Below, piece after piece: positions 15,225 to 36,049 of a DNA stretch of 36,049 nt. Under the pieces are notes generated by a model, which was not told where the DNA came from, did not search any database, and saw nothing but the letters and a program-made list of their open reading frames with translations. The position numbers and the translations under genes are program-made. Each line of letters starts with the position of its first letter. Position 1 is the first letter of the stretch. The stretch comes from Candidatus Fermentibacterota bacterium (lineage in GTDB: Bacteria; JAFGKV01). The stretch is taken from NCBI GenBank assembly GCA_030620115.1, contig JAUXFG010000022.1, positions 1 through 36,049 of the forward strand. Reading direction: 5' to 3'.

Positions 15225-15332
15225 GAGCTGACGAGTTTTCGCAATGCAGACGCGGAAGTTATCGAGGGTTTGACGAAGAAACAAGACTACTTGCCCGCAC
15301 TGTATCGATTTTTTGAAACGCGTGATATCTAG
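15225..15332 (+). pseudogene. possible C-terminal remnant of a lost gene
   Basis: Between rocD and the repeat element, one plus-strand frame reads for 35 codons without a stop and looks protein-like (FRNADAEVIEGLTKKQDYLP, then ALYRFFETRDI, then stop). There is an in-frame stop just upstream and no start codon. It ends exactly where the inverted-repeat element begins. It may be the tail of a gene cut by that element, or chance; a stretch this short is weak evidence. The rest of 15125-15224 shows nothing I can name beyond the rocD leader. Confidence 0.15.
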
Positions 15333-15526
15333 CCTGGACTTCTCACCGGCCTTCGAAGCGAAATGGCTGAGATGGCATTGCCCGCAAGGCTTGCGACCGA
15401 GGCCGACCGAAGGCGTATCCTCTGTGATACGTCGAGGGCGACCGACAGAGCGTAACGCAGTCCCGCGTCGGACGCGGGATGCCATATCCGCCGTTGTAGT
15501 AGAAGGCTGGTGAGAAATCCGGGCTA
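15330..15526. repeat. inverted-repeat element, TTCTCACC family, copy 1
   Basis: A ~197-base non-coding element with imperfect terminal inverted repeats. The left end TAGCCTGGACTTCTCACC pairs with the right end GGTGAGAAATCCGGGCTA, and over 26 bases 23 match. The interior shares GCAAGGCTTGCGACCGAGG and GAAGGCGTATCCTCTG with a second copy at 35507-35731 and holds a TCCCGCG/CGCGGGA hairpin. It encodes no protein, so it would need help in trans to move, if it moves. Confidence 0.75.
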
Positions 15527-15552
15527 ACCCCGGTCTCCCTCATCGGAACATC

Positions 15553-18585: not shown

Positions 18586-18960
18586 GTTCAGGGTTCAGGG
18601 TTCGGGGTTCAGGGTTCAGTGCGGCCTCTGATGGCACCGCGCCATCAGGTTTTTCAAGGAAGAGAGTACCGCAGATATGAAATGTACTCTCAAAGAAGAT
18701 GACGGAGGAAGGATGCAGAGAGATTCTTCGCTCCTTGGAGTCGCTCAGAATGACAGTGGTAGTGTGCAGAAGTAGGTGGCACTGCGTGTCATTCTGAGGG
18801 AGCGAAGCGACCGAAGAATCTGGGTGGGGGGAGGAGAGAAGGATGGGTTCAGGGTTGAGAGTACAGCTGGAAGAACAGGCCGTATGAGTTATGTACTCTC
18901 AAACAAGGGTTCAGGGTTCAGGGAACAGGGATTGATGGGTTGATGGGTTCGGAGGTTCAG
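18586..18960. repeat. GGTTCA word repeats and short inverted repeats in a long gap
   Basis: The 18298-19014 gap holds no convincing gene. GGTTCAGGGTTC words occur at 18586-18620, 18845-18855 and 18906-18952. Two hairpin pairs share one sequence: GAGAGTAC/GTACTCTC (18662-18669 and 18684-18691) and TTGAGAGTAC/GTACTCTCAA (18855-18864 and 18893-18902). A palindromic element sits between them at 18721-18822, so the two hairpins bracket it. Bases 18298-18585 show nothing I can name with confidence. Confidence 0.65.
18721..18833 (+). repeat. palindromic TCATTCTGAG element, copy 1
   Basis: About 102 bases (18721-18822) bounded by AGATTCTTCG and CGAAGAATCT; the two arms (CGCTCAGAATGAC and GTCATTCTGAGGGAGCG) pair imperfectly into one long hairpin. 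From 18724 to 18833 it matches the inverse of 35940-36049 with only a few differences. Similar GAATGAC/CTTCGCTCC hairpins are dispersed repeats in many environmental bacterial genomes. It encodes no protein. Confidence 0.8.
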
Positions 18961-19014: not shown

Positions 19015-19962
19015 ATGAAGATCAGTGGATTTTCGTTTGTGCGGAATGGAATAGAACTCTACTACCCGGTCGTTGAATCTATCTGTTCGATTCTTCCCAT
19101 TGTCGACGAATTCGTAATTGCCGTTGGCGCCGGTGATCCGGATGACACAACGCGGGAATGTATTGCTGGCATCAATGATGAGAAAATCAGGATTGTTGAT
19201 ACAATATGGGAAGAGAAATACTTCGACAGGGGAATCATCAATGCCATTCAAACGGATATCGCAAGAGAACAATGCGATGGTGATTGGCTTTTCTATCTTC
19301 AGGCCGATGAAGTCGTTCACGAGATGTACTTGCCGGCCATTCAATCTCGTTGCCGGGAGCTCGTAGATCGTCCTGAAATTGAAGGAATGCTGTTCCGGTA
19401 CAAGCATTTTTGGGGAGACTACGATCACTTCCATACGGGCCATGGCTGGTATCCATACGAAATCAGAATCGTCCGAAATAGGCCGGATATTCATTCATGG
19501 CAGAGCGCGCAGTCTTTTCGTCGCTTTGAAGATTATCAGAATCCCCGCCAGCCCTATGGCCATCACAAGCTCAAGGTTGCTCTCGTCAATGCAGAGGTGT
19601 ATCACTATGGCTGGGTGCGGCCTCCTCATCTGATGAATAAGAAGAACCGTGCGTTGAACGTCTTACACCGGGGAATAGCCCCAAACAAGGTTACTTCCGA
19701 TCAAGTCGCCCATGAATTCGACTACGGGCCCCTTGATCGTCTCGCCGTCTTTTCAGGAACGCATCCGAAGGTCATGAGCGAGATGATTGCCCGCATGAAT
19801 TGGCAAGAGAAGCTCCAATACTCAGGCAGAGCGGATCCTGCGCGGGAGCCACATAAGCATGAGAAGCTCAAATATCGCCTCTTGACATTCATAGAGAGGC
19901 ATCTTGGTCGAAACAGGCAGATCGGAGGATTCAAGAATTACATCCTTTTGAGGGATATATAG
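19015..19962 (+). CDS. family 2-like glycosyltransferase
   Basis: A 315-residue GT-A-type protein. It starts MKISGFSFVRNGIELYYPVV, has VIAVGAGDPDDTTRE in place of the usual VVDSGSTDGT loop, and has DWLFYLQADEVVHE where family 2 carries its metal-binding DxD-like acidic cluster. The C-terminal part is rich in His, Trp and Tyr and has no membrane helix. It likely transfers a sugar from a nucleotide donor during surface-glycan synthesis. The ATG at 19015 (GAGGGA upstream) is preferred over 18982. It begins a plus-strand run of three glycosyltransferases, separated from the next by a short inverted-repeat element. The sugar is unknown. Confidence 0.8.
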   Translation: MKISGFSFVRNGIELYYPVVESICSILPIVDEFVIAVGAGDPDDTTRECIAGINDEKIRIVDTIWEEKYFDRGIINAIQTDIAREQCDGDWLFYLQADEVVHEMYLPAIQSRCRELVDRPEIEGMLFRYKHFWGDYDHFHTGHGWYPYEIRIVRNRPDIHSWQSAQSFRRFEDYQNPRQPYGHHKLKVALVNAEVYHYGWVRPPHLMNKKNRALNVLHRGIAPNKVTSDQVAHEFDYGPLDRLAVFSGTHPKVMSEMIARMNWQEKLQYSGRADPAREPHKHEKLKYRLLTFIERHLGRNRQIGGFKNYILLRDI

Positions 19963-20023
19963 GGCGCATTTCTCTCCATCTCCGGCTGCTGCAGCCGTAA
20001 GTTGGTGAGAAATCCGAGTTAGC
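19959..20023. repeat. mini copy of TTCTCACC inverted-repeat element
   Basis: About 65 bases with ends ATAGGGCGCATTTCTCTCC and GGTGAGAAATCCGAGTTA surrounding a CGGCTG-CTG-CAGCCG hairpin. The ends are those of the elements at 15330-15526 and 35507-35731, with the interior missing. It starts at the stop codon of the preceding gene and could also act as a transcript end, although there is no T-run. Confidence 0.55.
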
Positions 20024-23060: not shown

Positions 23061-23133
23061 GGAGGGCCACGCTCCGTCGTGGCCGTCTATGCCGCACAAC
23101 GCGGACGCGATGAAACGCGTCCCTCCATCATAC
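23061..23133. repeat. double-hairpin repeat, copy 1
   Basis: Two back-to-back hairpins: GGCCACG-CTCCGT-CGTGGCC and GGACGCG-ATGAAA-CGCGTCC. Bases 23088-23133 match 34001-34046 at 43 of 46 positions, with the last 33 identical. The remainder of the gap (23134-23346) shows no gene that I trust; a 69-codon open frame at 23141-23350 has no family features. Confidence 0.75.
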
Positions 23134-24554: not shown

Positions 24555-24811
24555 TTCGGGGATGTTTCGGGACAGGCCGGGAAGTGCTTCACTCTTTCAG
24601 AACCATCCTTGCAATGACTGAGGCCCGGCGTCATCGCGAGCGGCAGCGCGGCGATCTCAATGGGCGGATGAGATTGCTTCGTCGCTACTCTTCTCGCAAT
24701 GACAGGTGGAGGGGCCAGGGTTCCGGGATCTCTCTACGGGATTCTGTATTCCTATCGTGATCCGTAGCGCGAGGCCGAGACCGTAAAACGAGAAAATGAA
24801 ACATCCCCGAA
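24555..24811. repeat. 257-base element with 14-base inverted ends and internal palindrome
   Basis: TTCGGGGATGTTTC (24555-24568) is repeated as its exact inverse at 24798-24811. Inside, 24630-24703 is an imperfect palindrome: GTCATCGCGAGCGGCAGCG against CGTCGCTACTCTTCTCGCAA then TGAC, with GATCTC and GAGATTGC near the middle. It resembles the CATTGCGAG/CTCGCAATG hairpin repeats seen in various environmental bacteria. It fills most of the 671-base gap between kdtA and kdsD. No gene is visible in 24325-24995. Confidence 0.65.
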
Positions 24812-26419: not shown

Positions 26420-26440
26420 CAGCCCGGACTTCTCACCAGC
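26420..26440. repeat. solo end of TTCTCACC inverted-repeat element
   Basis: CAGCCCGGACTTCTCACCAG is nearly the exact outer end of the elements at 15330 and 35507. A GTATC/GATAC pair follows but there is no opposite end, so this looks like a fragment. Confidence 0.5.
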
Positions 26441-27119: not shown

Positions 27120-28712
27120 ATGTCGCAAATCAGAAAGATCAGAAAGCTCGGCTCGGCGGTTCTTCCGCACCCGGCAGCCCCCGCGCTTGTTGCATTAGGA
27201 CTTCACCTATGGCATCTCGGGCATGCCTCTCTCTGGGCTGATGAAGGTGCTACATTTGGTATTGCCCAACACGGGCTTGTCCCGTATGAGCATCCTGCCG
27301 CGTATTTCCGGTTCATGAGCATCTGGATGAAACTTCTCGGCGTTTCCGAGATTACGCTACGGCTCCCCTCAGCATGCTGCATGGCAGCCTTTGTTTTCGT
27401 AGTGTACCGAGCGGCTTCCGAGATGGGCGGCAGACATGCGGGGGTTTGGGCGGCGTGGTTTGCGGCGATCTCCCCCTTTGTTCGACTCGGCGCGCAAGAG
27501 GCACGGATGTATGCGCCATTGGCCCTCTTCCAGGCATTGGCATTCCTCGGCGTTCTCGAAAGCCTCGCCGGAAAAAGACGGGGTCTCGTTCTGTGGGGAA
27601 TCGGCACTGCGTTATCCATCTCGCTCCACCACCTCGGGTGGATAGCGTGCTGGCCTCTCTTCCTTCTGCTCCTGTTCCGGTCTCCGCGGAAACCGGTCTT
27701 GATGACAGGAGCCATCACCATGCTGGCGTGTTTTCCTCTGTTTCTCTCACTGCTGCGGCAGTTGTTATGCAGACTGCAGGGGAATCACCTGGGAACGACT
27801 CCGGGCTTCCCGGCCGCAGTAAAAAAAATAGCTGGTCAGGTCTACTACCTGGGTGCCGGATACTTCTTTACGCGTCTGGATGCGGGCTCGATAACCGATC
27901 TTCTGCGCTGGCCCACGATTTTCTTGGTATTGCTTCAGGTGGTGCTTCCGCTGGTTATACTTCTGTGGGGTGTGGCGCAGATCGTGGGCGCGGACCGCCG
28001 GCATGTGCTTCTTCTTGGGCTCTTTTTTCTCCCCACATTCCTTTTCCTGGCCTACGAAGGATCACCGGCCAATCTCTTGCTTCCCATCTATGGCGCCTAT
28101 GTTATCATACTGGGGATCGGGGCAGCCAAGCTTCATCGAGGGATTCCCCTCTCTTTGGCGGCTCTGTGGCTTGTGACGGTAGCAGCGCAGTCCGGACAGA
28201 GCAGCTATGCCATCCATCCGGAGGATTGGCGTGCGCTTTCCGGTGCGGTGAGCGCGACGGCCAGACCAGGCGATGCAATCTACCTGACCGGTTCCCGGAA
28301 TAGCCACTTCATCACTGACTTCTACCCCGTTGCCCCGGCGGTGCGTTATTCGGCAGTGGATAGTATGCTCCTTGTTTCGACATATGACGCACACCGCCCT
28401 CCCAAGTCACGGAGCATCGTACGTTCGGTGAAGCAGCTTTTTCGAGACCATGAGCGGGTATGGTTTGTATACATTGACTACGACATGCCGTTCATGGAAC
28501 AGACGGTGGACAGTCTATGGCGCCAGGCCGGTGTTGAGAGACGGCAGTATGGAGCAGGCCTCGAATTGCTGCTCCTAAGGCGGCCTCCGGCCGCAATCCC
28601 GCGCAGTACGCGGGATCAGAGGTCAAAGGTCAGCCGGACAACGTCGTCGCGAATCCCGCGCAGCGCGAGGTCGGCGAGCGTACGGAAATGGAGGGTGCAT
28701 GAGCTTTTTTAG
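27120..28712 (+). CDS. GT39-like membrane glycosyltransferase
   Basis: About 530 residues with a GT-C fold. The first loop holds LWADEGATFGIAQH (catalytic-type Asp-Glu), followed by LPSACCMAAFVFVVYRAA and the family-type QEARMYAPLALFQ. About nine hydrophobic helices come next, then a soluble tail (HPEDWRALSGAVSA, DAIYLTGS). The donor is probably a polyprenyl-phosphate sugar; the acceptor is unknown. ATG 27120 is chosen over TTG 27102. The last ~44 residues (after LELLLLRRP) are Arg/Ser-rich and are encoded by hairpin-bearing repeat DNA (28581-28616), so the natural C-terminus may have been replaced. The stop at 28712 lies inside the next gene, a 14-base overlap. Confidence 0.8.
   Translation: MSQIRKIRKLGSAVLPHPAAPALVALGLHLWHLGHASLWADEGATFGIAQHGLVPYEHPAAYFRFMSIWMKLLGVSEITLRLPSACCMAAFVFVVYRAASEMGGRHAGVWAAWFAAISPFVRLGAQEARMYAPLALFQALAFLGVLESLAGKRRGLVLWGIGTALSISLHHLGWIACWPLFLLLLFRSPRKPVLMTGAITMLACFPLFLSLLRQLLCRLQGNHLGTTPGFPAAVKKIAGQVYYLGAGYFFTRLDAGSITDLLRWPTIFLVLLQVVLPLVILLWGVAQIVGADRRHVLLLGLFFLPTFLFLAYEGSPANLLLPIYGAYVIILGIGAAKLHRGIPLSLAALWLVTVAAQSGQSSYAIHPEDWRALSGAVSATARPGDAIYLTGSRNSHFITDFYPVAPAVRYSAVDSMLLVSTYDAHRPPKSRSIVRSVKQLFRDHERVWFVYIDYDMPFMEQTVDSLWRQAGVERRQYGAGLELLLLRRPPAAIPRSTRDQRSKVSRTTSSRIPRSARSASVRKWRVHELF
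28581..28616. repeat. hairpin repeat inside 3' end of a glycosyltransferase gene
   Basis: CGGCC-TCC-GGCCG (28581-28593) and ATCCCGCG-CAGTA-CGCGGGAT (28596-28616) are perfect hairpins. A partial further copy (ATCCCGCGCAGCGCGAGG) follows at about 28653. The TCCCGCG/CGCGGGA hairpin also occurs in the element at 15330-15526. Confidence 0.55.
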
Positions 28713-34000: not shown

Positions 34001-34046
34001 TATGGCGCAGACCGCGGACGCGATGAAACGCGTCCCTCCATCATAC
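34001..34046. repeat. double-hairpin repeat, copy 2 (half)
   Basis: Matches 23088-23133 at 43 of 46 bases and contains the GGACGCG-ATGAAA-CGCGTCC hairpin. The first hairpin of copy 1 is absent here. Confidence 0.75.
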
Positions 34047-34049
34047 TTC

Positions 34050-34189
34050 ATCGGAATCGGCATCGCTATCGGGATCGAATTGAGGTATGATCATATGGCC
34101 CTCCGTCACGAGAATCTTGATGTTTGATGAAGGCGAGAGATATGGGGTGGCTTATTTCGATAGCGATTCCGATCCCGATTCCGATAGCG
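34050..34189. repeat. ATCGGA/ATCGCT word repeat, inverted pair
   Basis: ATCGGAATCGGCATCGCTAT at 34050-34078 and its near inverse CGATAGCGATTCCGATCC at 34157-34189 flank about 80 bases. They could fold together over some 22 bases with two mismatches. The tract sits between the convergent HD and aminotransferase genes. Confidence 0.6.
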
Positions 34190-35410: not shown

Positions 35411-35506
35411 CTCATCCTCCGGTAAGAGGCAGGGTTTGGATTGGAGCATTTCGAATCCGGGATGAAGATAGCCCAAAGCTCTCCTCACATCATCCCTGAT
35501 CTTGAA

Positions 35507-35731
35507 TAGCCCGCACTTCTCACCGGCTTTCGTCGCGAAGCGGCGTAGTTGGCTGTGGCTGCAAGGCTTGCGACCGAGGACCCCGGCTCTGTCAGGGCGT
35601 AGCCTGGCTCCGCCGTGGCGAAGCCCGAAGGCGTATCCTCTGCGATACGGTGAGGAGGCCGAAGGAGCGTAACGCCGCAGGCAGGGCCAAATGCGGCGCT
35701 GCAGCAGATAGTTGGTGAGAAATGTGGGATA
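35507..35731. repeat. inverted-repeat element, TTCTCACC family, copy 2
   Basis: A ~225-base non-coding element with ends TAGCCCGCACTTCTCACCGG and GTTGGTGAGAAATGTGGGAT. It shares the interior GCAAGGCTTGCGACCGAGG and GAAGGCGTATCCTCTG with 15330-15526, plus an extra ~40 bases between them (about 35580-35623). It lies upstream of the aminotransferase gene. 35411-35506 shows nothing else. Confidence 0.75.
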
Positions 35732-35800
35732 GGGTTGTCAGTTCTCAGCTATCGGCTATCCGCACACCAGCCGATCCTTCGTACCTTCCTGTTGAGATTA

Positions 35801-35900: not shown

Positions 35901-35939
35901 TGGTCCTTGCCCCGTCATCTGAACGCTCTCTTCTCCTCC

Positions 35940-36049
35940 TCCTCCCCCACCGAGATTCTTCGGTCACTCCGCTCCCTCAGAATGACACGTAGCGCCACAT
36001 ACTTCTGCGCACTGCCACTGTCATTCTGAGCGACTCCAAGGAGCGAAGA
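35940..36049 (-). repeat. palindromic TCATTCTGAG element, copy 2 (reaches window end)
   Basis: The inverse of 18724-18833 with only a few substitutions over about 110 bases. The window cuts it at 36049. It forms the same long imperfect hairpin. Confidence 0.8.

Follow-up and report, generated by a model that had tools for sequence, protein, structure and literature searches.

An inverted-repeat element family in the window

The window (36,049 nucleotides) is contig C207 of the source genome, G000, an assembly of 4.10 Mb in 296 contigs. MurA, used as a marker for the host, matched proteins of a mixture of phyla at 49-56%. It contains four features of one repeat family: two full copies, a mini copy and a lone end (Table 1). 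All four had been described in an initial annotation of the window, and each is present where it had been placed. A covariance model made from family members matched the two full copies and the mini copy, all on the + strand. The ends had been given as 26 bases long. They are indeed inverted, and what is conserved in them is rather about 15 bases, CCCGSAYTTCTCACC, within a longer imperfect stem. It had also been noted that the ends flank no transposase, and at the loci examined we found none between or beside them.

Table 1. Positions of the elements and associated features. Positions are those of the window except where another locus is named.
Feature	Position	Strand	Length and sequence	Fold z	Covariance-model match	Remarks
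Full copy	15330..15526	+	197 bases; TAGCCTGGACTTCTCACC ... GGTGAGAAATCCGGGCTA	-6.5	15329-15527; 186.8 bits	Single hairpin
Full copy with an additional internal block of ~42 bp	35507..35731	+	225 bases	-4.6	35506-35732; 150.1 bits	
Mini copy	19959..20023	+		-2.4	19959-20022; 18.9 bits, E 0.0024	Two ends and a shortened stem, core deleted
Lone end	26420..26440	+				Followed by a decayed remainder
Palindrome A within a full copy	15461..15479	.	19 bp; TCCCGCGTCGGACGCGGGA			Replaces 7 bp of copies that have no palindrome A
Apical core of the 15330 copy (approximate)	15388..15460	+	GGCTTGCGACCGAGG...GGCGTATCC...GATACGTCGAGG...GTAACGCAG			Portion common to other genomes
Palindrome A			19 bp; TCCCGCGNCNGACGCGGGA			Inside elements and other repeats
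Palindrome B			16 bp; TCCGCCAGCTGGCGGA			Inside elements and other repeats
DDE_Tnp_1 transposase, intact-looking	L061 12-1751 (G000:C122)		579 aa			Near contig end; not flanked by the element's ends

The 8-mer TTCTCACC occurs 6 times in the window (1.5 expected). By itself this is weak evidence, because 3 of 100 shuffled sequences also had at least 6. The check that had been proposed, a search of the genome for the ends, was decisive. We found 234 forward and 230 reverse matches in G000 to the 16-base end TGGTGAGAAATSCGGG (up to two mismatches), compared to 0 forward and 1 reverse for the reversed pattern. It is this difference, and not the number of 8-mers in the window, that indicates that the family is real. 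BLASTN of the window copy against G000 gave 50 matches.

We paired ends in a sample of 1,266,882 bp (31% of G000, window included). The 245 ends in the sample gave 72 pairs less than 500 bp apart and left 101 ends unpaired; 34 of the unpaired ends were exact and 42 had two mismatches and are partly chance matches. The paired elements were 38-370 bp long, with a mode of 177-201 bp. Scaled up from this sample, G000 carries of the order of 200 elements, each about 180 bp when complete. The family has terminal inverted repeats, many copies and no coding capacity, as a MITE (miniature inverted-repeat transposable element) does.

The window also contains other repeats. Dispersed palindromic repeats are present at 34050-34185 and at 23088-23133 and 34001-34046. 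The sequences at 18725-18841 and 35933-36049 are an inverted pair of 117 bases, 89% complementary and 17 kb apart, of the type TGTCATTCTGAG...AGAATCT.

Insertion, nesting and target sites

We found that the elements of G000 have inserted into other sequences and into each other, and that some have been internally deleted. The elements on C17 (two), C183 and C90 sit within other dispersed repeats for which empty copies can be aligned. In these four comparisons, the joined flanks were about 4 nt longer than the empty site. A fifth candidate, at C184:20412, aligned poorly and is weak. In addition, the nested copies on C17 and C90 each consist of one element within another, at an identical position of the host element. 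Because the two share this position, the nested composite has itself been copied or moved. Two stretches of the window belong to repeats of the kinds that bear elements elsewhere: 24570-24806 is part of a dispersed repeat and is the empty version of the element-bearing sites on C90 and C183, and 34184-34050 is an empty copy of the repeat that bears the element on C17.

The bases flanking CCCGG...CCGGG read YTAR on both sides. The T and the A were present in 47 and 49 of 57 copies on the left and in 47 and 50 of 57 on the right (the set includes the nested copy on C17; that on C90 was excluded by its mismatches). The additional 4 nt fits a duplicated TA plus the terminal G/C of the element, or a decayed 4-bp duplication. 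A faithful 4-bp duplication fits poorly, since the two flanks are mismatched at several positions, both with one another and with the empty site. We looked for target duplications of 2-8 bp over the 57 copies and none was significant. The similarity between the two flanking 4-mers of a copy did not significantly exceed that in shuffled data (best p 0.08), and a target duplication is therefore unproved.

The element is a conserved hairpin with a preferred strand

The initial annotation had described ends and interior blocks. It had missed that conservation of a single-strand hairpin extends over the whole element, and that the apex of this hairpin is common to distant genomes in which the ends are different. 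Each of the two full copies in the window folds along its entire length into a single hairpin (Table 1). We aligned 20 full-length copies from G000 without reference to structure (alignment A1; 20 of the 23 listed references, the three with palindrome A at other sites being left out, as were two nested copies). Of 63 pairs in the hairpin, 27 had changes to both partners in one or more copies. In controls, the number of two-sided pairs was 11.2 +/- 2.2 (shuffled) and 6-12 (slid).

In 33 of 34 copies the + strand gave the better fold; its mean advantage over the - strand was 13.4 kcal/mol. Mispaired positions were also asymmetric. We counted these in the terminal stem, in which the register fixes the pairing; the pairs of the inner helices had been taken from an RNA fold, and such a fold is biased towards G-U. 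There were 49 G-T and 13 A-C cells in G000 (32 and 12 if one fixed G-T pair is removed) and 22 G-T and 5 A-C cells in G037, another genome with such elements, the cells being non-independent because copies share ancestry. The excess of G-T fits a folded single strand, in which G-T is tolerated; on the opposite strand the same mispairs are A-C. One long hairpin is conserved across copies, with a strand preference. The element is intergenic and an imperfect palindrome over its full length, with TA at its termini, all as in ERIC-type repeats.

Related elements in other genomes

Searches with short sequences suggested a family limited to one genome. An exact 22-mer had no matches elsewhere (records of the source genome itself may be absent from that search), and the end 15-mer matched once each in G001 and G002, which are of the same family as G000; this is the background level. 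Restriction to one genome was overturned by a covariance model made from A1 (R1), with which we searched 98 genomes including G000 (E<=0.001).

R1 matched in 9 of the 98 genomes, G000 and 8 of the 97 others, with E-values down to 1e-30. Only G001 among the eight shares its family with G000; the other seven are related at the level of domain only. Numbers of matches are minima, at most 27 candidates having been scored in each genome. There were at least 24 in G037 (best E 4.2e-21), at least 14 in G090 (best 1.2e-30), at least one in G051 (8.4e-18) and at least two in G001 (best 3.7e-10). G094, G045, G075 and G088 each had at least one or two weaker matches. Since 89 genomes gave no match, gross inflation of the E-values seems unlikely. 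A further match (33.7 bits) was found in G008, and the Deltaproteobacteria MAG CSMAG_220 (JAUVAN010000080.1) had a weak one (19.2 bits, E 0.016) in which the core can be recognised. Three queries against plasmids, two against E. coli, one against phages and three patterns run on viral contigs had no matches.

We also compared homologs to the 20 G000 copies by BLASTN. The set, used for the end search as well, had 28 sequences from 10 sources (twelve homolog loci) and included 6 of 21 G037 copies. This confirmed homology for some of them: fourteen of the 28 had matches at E<=0.05 and nine at E<=1e-4, the best being 5e-11 over 134 nt. The apex is nearly constant across genomes: AAGGC...GAC.GA...CGCAGGCGTAYCC....GGTACGTCGAGGA...AACGAAGCAG. 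The terminal stems vary, from CCCGGATTATTCATGAGG in many G037 copies to GGGGTTGTGAAATAATAATG in one G090 set and GCCCACGTTGAGCG in G001, and each is complementary to its partner. Some units of about 100 nt consist of the core without outer ends (L266 and L285-L288 in G090; L302 in G088). Most of them are followed by CCGAAGGG, and the two genomes are unrelated.

The fold is conserved in these homologs. In a cross-genome alignment (A2), which was fitted to the covariance model and is therefore biased towards structure, 88.6% of cells pair, compared to 64.2% in shuffled alignments, and 56 of 63 pairs are two-sided, compared to 37.4 (shuffled) and 34-39 (slid). The same hairpin as in G000 was recovered independently from 21 copies of G037 aligned without reference to structure: 18 of its 61 pairs were two-sided (shuffled, 7.2 +/- 1.7; slid, 3-6). 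The + strand folded better in all 21 homologs folded singly. A structure-blind alignment of mixed genomes, from which we expected the long stem, gave the 8-bp apical helix alone. We found no matching family in Rfam, either for the window at the gathering cut-off or in more permissive searches of loci (10 at E<=0.5, 6 at E<=1), in which the only matches were tRNAs and one group II intron fragment.

Genomic context

The 72 paired copies in G000 were in co-directional gaps (29), divergent gaps (15), convergent gaps (9), at sequence edges (13) or overlapping long ORFs (6), where genes were taken as ORFs of at least 200 aa, a crude proxy. Convergent gaps were not enriched, and we rejected a role as terminator. 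In co-directional gaps, the folded strand was the gene strand in 13 of 22 cases in G000, 8 of 13 in G090 and 9 of 11 in G037 (pooled 30/46, p 0.054). This is suggestive at most of an orientation bias towards co-directional genes, and a bias this weak offers little for an RNA acting in cis. Where the family of a neighbouring protein could be identified (7 of 10 proteins scanned), the neighbours were mutually unrelated housekeeping genes. Those in G090 include the operon genes for enolase, aconitase and transketolase.

Short palindromes within the element

The initial annotation had called the family MITE-like and attributed its size variants to internal deletion. We agree that it is non-autonomous and mobile, with inverted repeats, internally deleted copies and solo copies. 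Deletion explains the variation in size only in part; a further part, which had been missed, arises where a short palindrome (A or B) has taken the place of a segment of the element. Palindrome A had 110 forward and 103 reverse matches in G000 and none in 144 other genomes. Palindrome B had 112 exact copies in G000 and was present in 2 of the 144 (1 and 2 copies). Besides the one within the element at 15461-15479, the window has a short palindrome of these types at 28597-28615.

We compared copies with a palindrome to the best empty copy of the same sequence. For palindrome A, 67 of 68 copies, with complete flanks, were used. We found no empty copy to set against 26 of the 67 A copies and 31 of the 66 B copies. 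The palindrome stood in place of exactly 7 bp in 21 of the 41 comparisons with A and 21 of the 35 with B, 42 of 76 in all. The 42 cases are not 42 events, because they represent only about seven distinct combinations of site and type, spread over the element and two or more other repeat families. Other replaced lengths were 5, 9, 11, 12, 16 or 21-38 bp, and a number of the long replacements cover two known sites. The replaced segment starts with C and ends with G in 50 of the 76 best comparisons. No constant GTAG or CGTC tag stood beside the palindromes in the copies listed. We found no description of fixed-length replacement by short palindromes in the literature searched; if confirmed, the 7-bp replacement would be a mutation process for which that literature holds no description.

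Candidates for the enzyme that moves the element

We looked for a full-length element with a transposase among the 13 pairs of ends that are 0.8-4.1 kb apart within the first 781 kb of G000 and found none; these pairs were poor matches. The best long pair (C212) does not enclose a transposase. The ends bracket none of the 12 transposase loci in G000 (8 DDE_Tnp_1 and 4 Y1_Tnp), and we rejected both types as the mobiliser on that basis. For three of the four Y1_Tnp genes a family end lies about 0.75 kb or less from the domain match, on one side only.

Other candidates were also rejected. For IS630, PF13358 (DDE_3) had no matches in G000, and the control search was positive in 3 of 14 genomes. 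For IS1380, the ends of which those of the G037 element may resemble, we did not find PF13701 with matching ends in 10 genomes (the 9 that bear elements, and G002). At 1e-5, PF13701 was found only in G002 and G075 (both fragments) and G090 (below the cut-off), and family-like ends were beside none of these. In G000 there was a sub-threshold match to PF13701 in a 579-aa DDE_Tnp_1 protein. For reverse transcription, RVT_1 had no matches in G000, whereas E. coli and two other controls were positive.

Discussion

Relationship to known repeats

In anatomy, the closest system is ERIC (IRU, RU-1), described as a non-autonomous, intergenic imperfect palindrome with TA termini, a target duplication and a stable RNA stem-loop; in yersiniae, its orientation has been proposed to matter for mRNA stability (PMC2229807). 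The element of G000 is likewise a non-autonomous, intergenic imperfect palindrome with TA at its termini. Internal deletions occur in ERIC, and it is not known to have a transposase. In contrast to ERIC, the G000 element is longer and has a conserved internal core that is present in distant genomes with other ends. The element had no BLASTN match in 20,395 records from E. coli, a species that carries ERIC.

RUP of Streptococcus pneumoniae and other IS630-type MITEs are short, with inverted ends and insertion at TA (PMC2229807), and the G000 element is like them in each of these respects. It differs in that G000 has no PF13358 and in its structure; the part of PMC2229807 that we consulted reports no functional or structural motif for RUP. 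REPs are known inside longer palindromes (PMC3733652), and the likeness of REP, BIME and REPIN, as high-copy extragenic palindromes, bears on the short palindromes A and B. Unlike REPs, A and B have no constant GTAG/CGTC tag, and the consulted text of PMC3733652 does not mention a fixed 7-bp replacement.

Two repeats from Geobacter are also similar. The Chunjie MITE of Geobacter uraniireducens, of 178-235 bp, is intergenic and is described as having tens of copies and size variants (PMC10969869); compared by description only, it resembles the G000 element in size, intergenic place and size variants. In Geobacter metallireducens there are 24 predicted short RNA elements, intergenic and multicopy, with the central palindrome GRCGTAGCGCTGCTACGCC, which appear in the account available to us as RNA elements and not as mobile (PMC2700814). 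That palindrome resembles the apex GGCGTAYCC...GGTACGTC found here, a lead only, from the motifs and not from a full alignment. Judging from such likenesses, both may be members of this family seen earlier under other descriptions.

Origin and maintenance of the element

We think it probable that the element is non-autonomous and ERIC-like, that it is moved in trans, and that its transcribed strand is under selection for structure. The ~15-bp ends would be acted on in trans by a transposase, which would move the element into TA-centred targets (YTAR). The copy that supplied the transposase may have been lost, may lie in unassembled or unsampled parts of the genome, or may be part of an insertion sequence that looks unrelated. 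The + strand would be transcribed within neighbouring mRNAs, and the hairpin, with its ~70-nt apical core, would be retained since the RNA form matters. That form could keep an insertion in an operon harmless by folding, or it could serve in processing or bind a protein. The core would be a module, carried on other ends in other genomes and on its own, as units of ~100 nt, in two of them.

A plainer notion is that the family is an ordinary MITE, a palindromic insertion-sequence remnant with no function beyond its ends, in which pairing is inherited or is maintained by template-switch (quasi-palindrome) correction. The ends, the TA target, the internal deletions and the lack of genes all fit, as does gene orientation in G000, which is near even (13/9), and template switching during replication would also yield paired changes. 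However, correction of a palindrome should prefer no strand, and we found more G-T than A-C and better folding of the + strand in nearly all copies. Nor is a remnant expected to keep its apex in relatives at the level of domain that have different ends. We consider this explanation unlikely. The strand preference could also be that of an enzyme. If a Y1 (HUH) transposase moved the element as single-stranded DNA, in the manner of REP or REPIN, the preferred strand would be the one bound by the enzyme, and no strong transcription bias would be needed. G000 has four Y1_Tnp genes, three of them near a family end. However, there is an end about every 9-10 kb, so that three of four genes near an end is not significant, and the genes are not bracketed by ends. 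The Y1 mechanism is not known to leave inverted ends or flanks that look like TA-centred duplications, which also counts against it, and we regard movement of this kind as quite improbable.

Covariation and a conserved apex would also be found in a cis-regulatory RNA family, one that is not mobile and has spread with duplicated genes or by recombination, and the operon genes among the neighbours in G090, such as enolase, aconitase and transketolase, would fit it. The empty sites in unrelated repeats largely refute this, and the nested copy also counts against it. In addition, the neighbours are mutually unrelated and copies are found in every gene context. Of the explanations considered here, this one has the least chance of being correct. 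We return to the ERIC-like element moved in trans as the reading that we favour.

It is possible, and we put this forward as a doubtful proposal, that the family belongs to an undescribed class of mobile structured elements. In such a class, an apical core of about 70 nt, acting as RNA or ssDNA, would pass from one distant bacterial lineage to another on differing transposon ends and reach hundreds of copies. Its fold would be selected, and the core, rather than the ends, would persist across distant lineages. The elements of G000 would have been further edited by palindromes of 16 and 19 bp that replace a fixed 7 bp.

Small intergenic repeats are usually regarded as dead scraps of transposons, limited to one genus. 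Here a structured core recurs at high copy number, with different ends, in genomes that share only a domain, and its fold is conserved pair by pair. As a consequence, the role of ERIC-like repeats could be tested across many lineages. There would also be an RNA family to add to those in Rfam, where it is absent, and the question of which enzyme moves the element.
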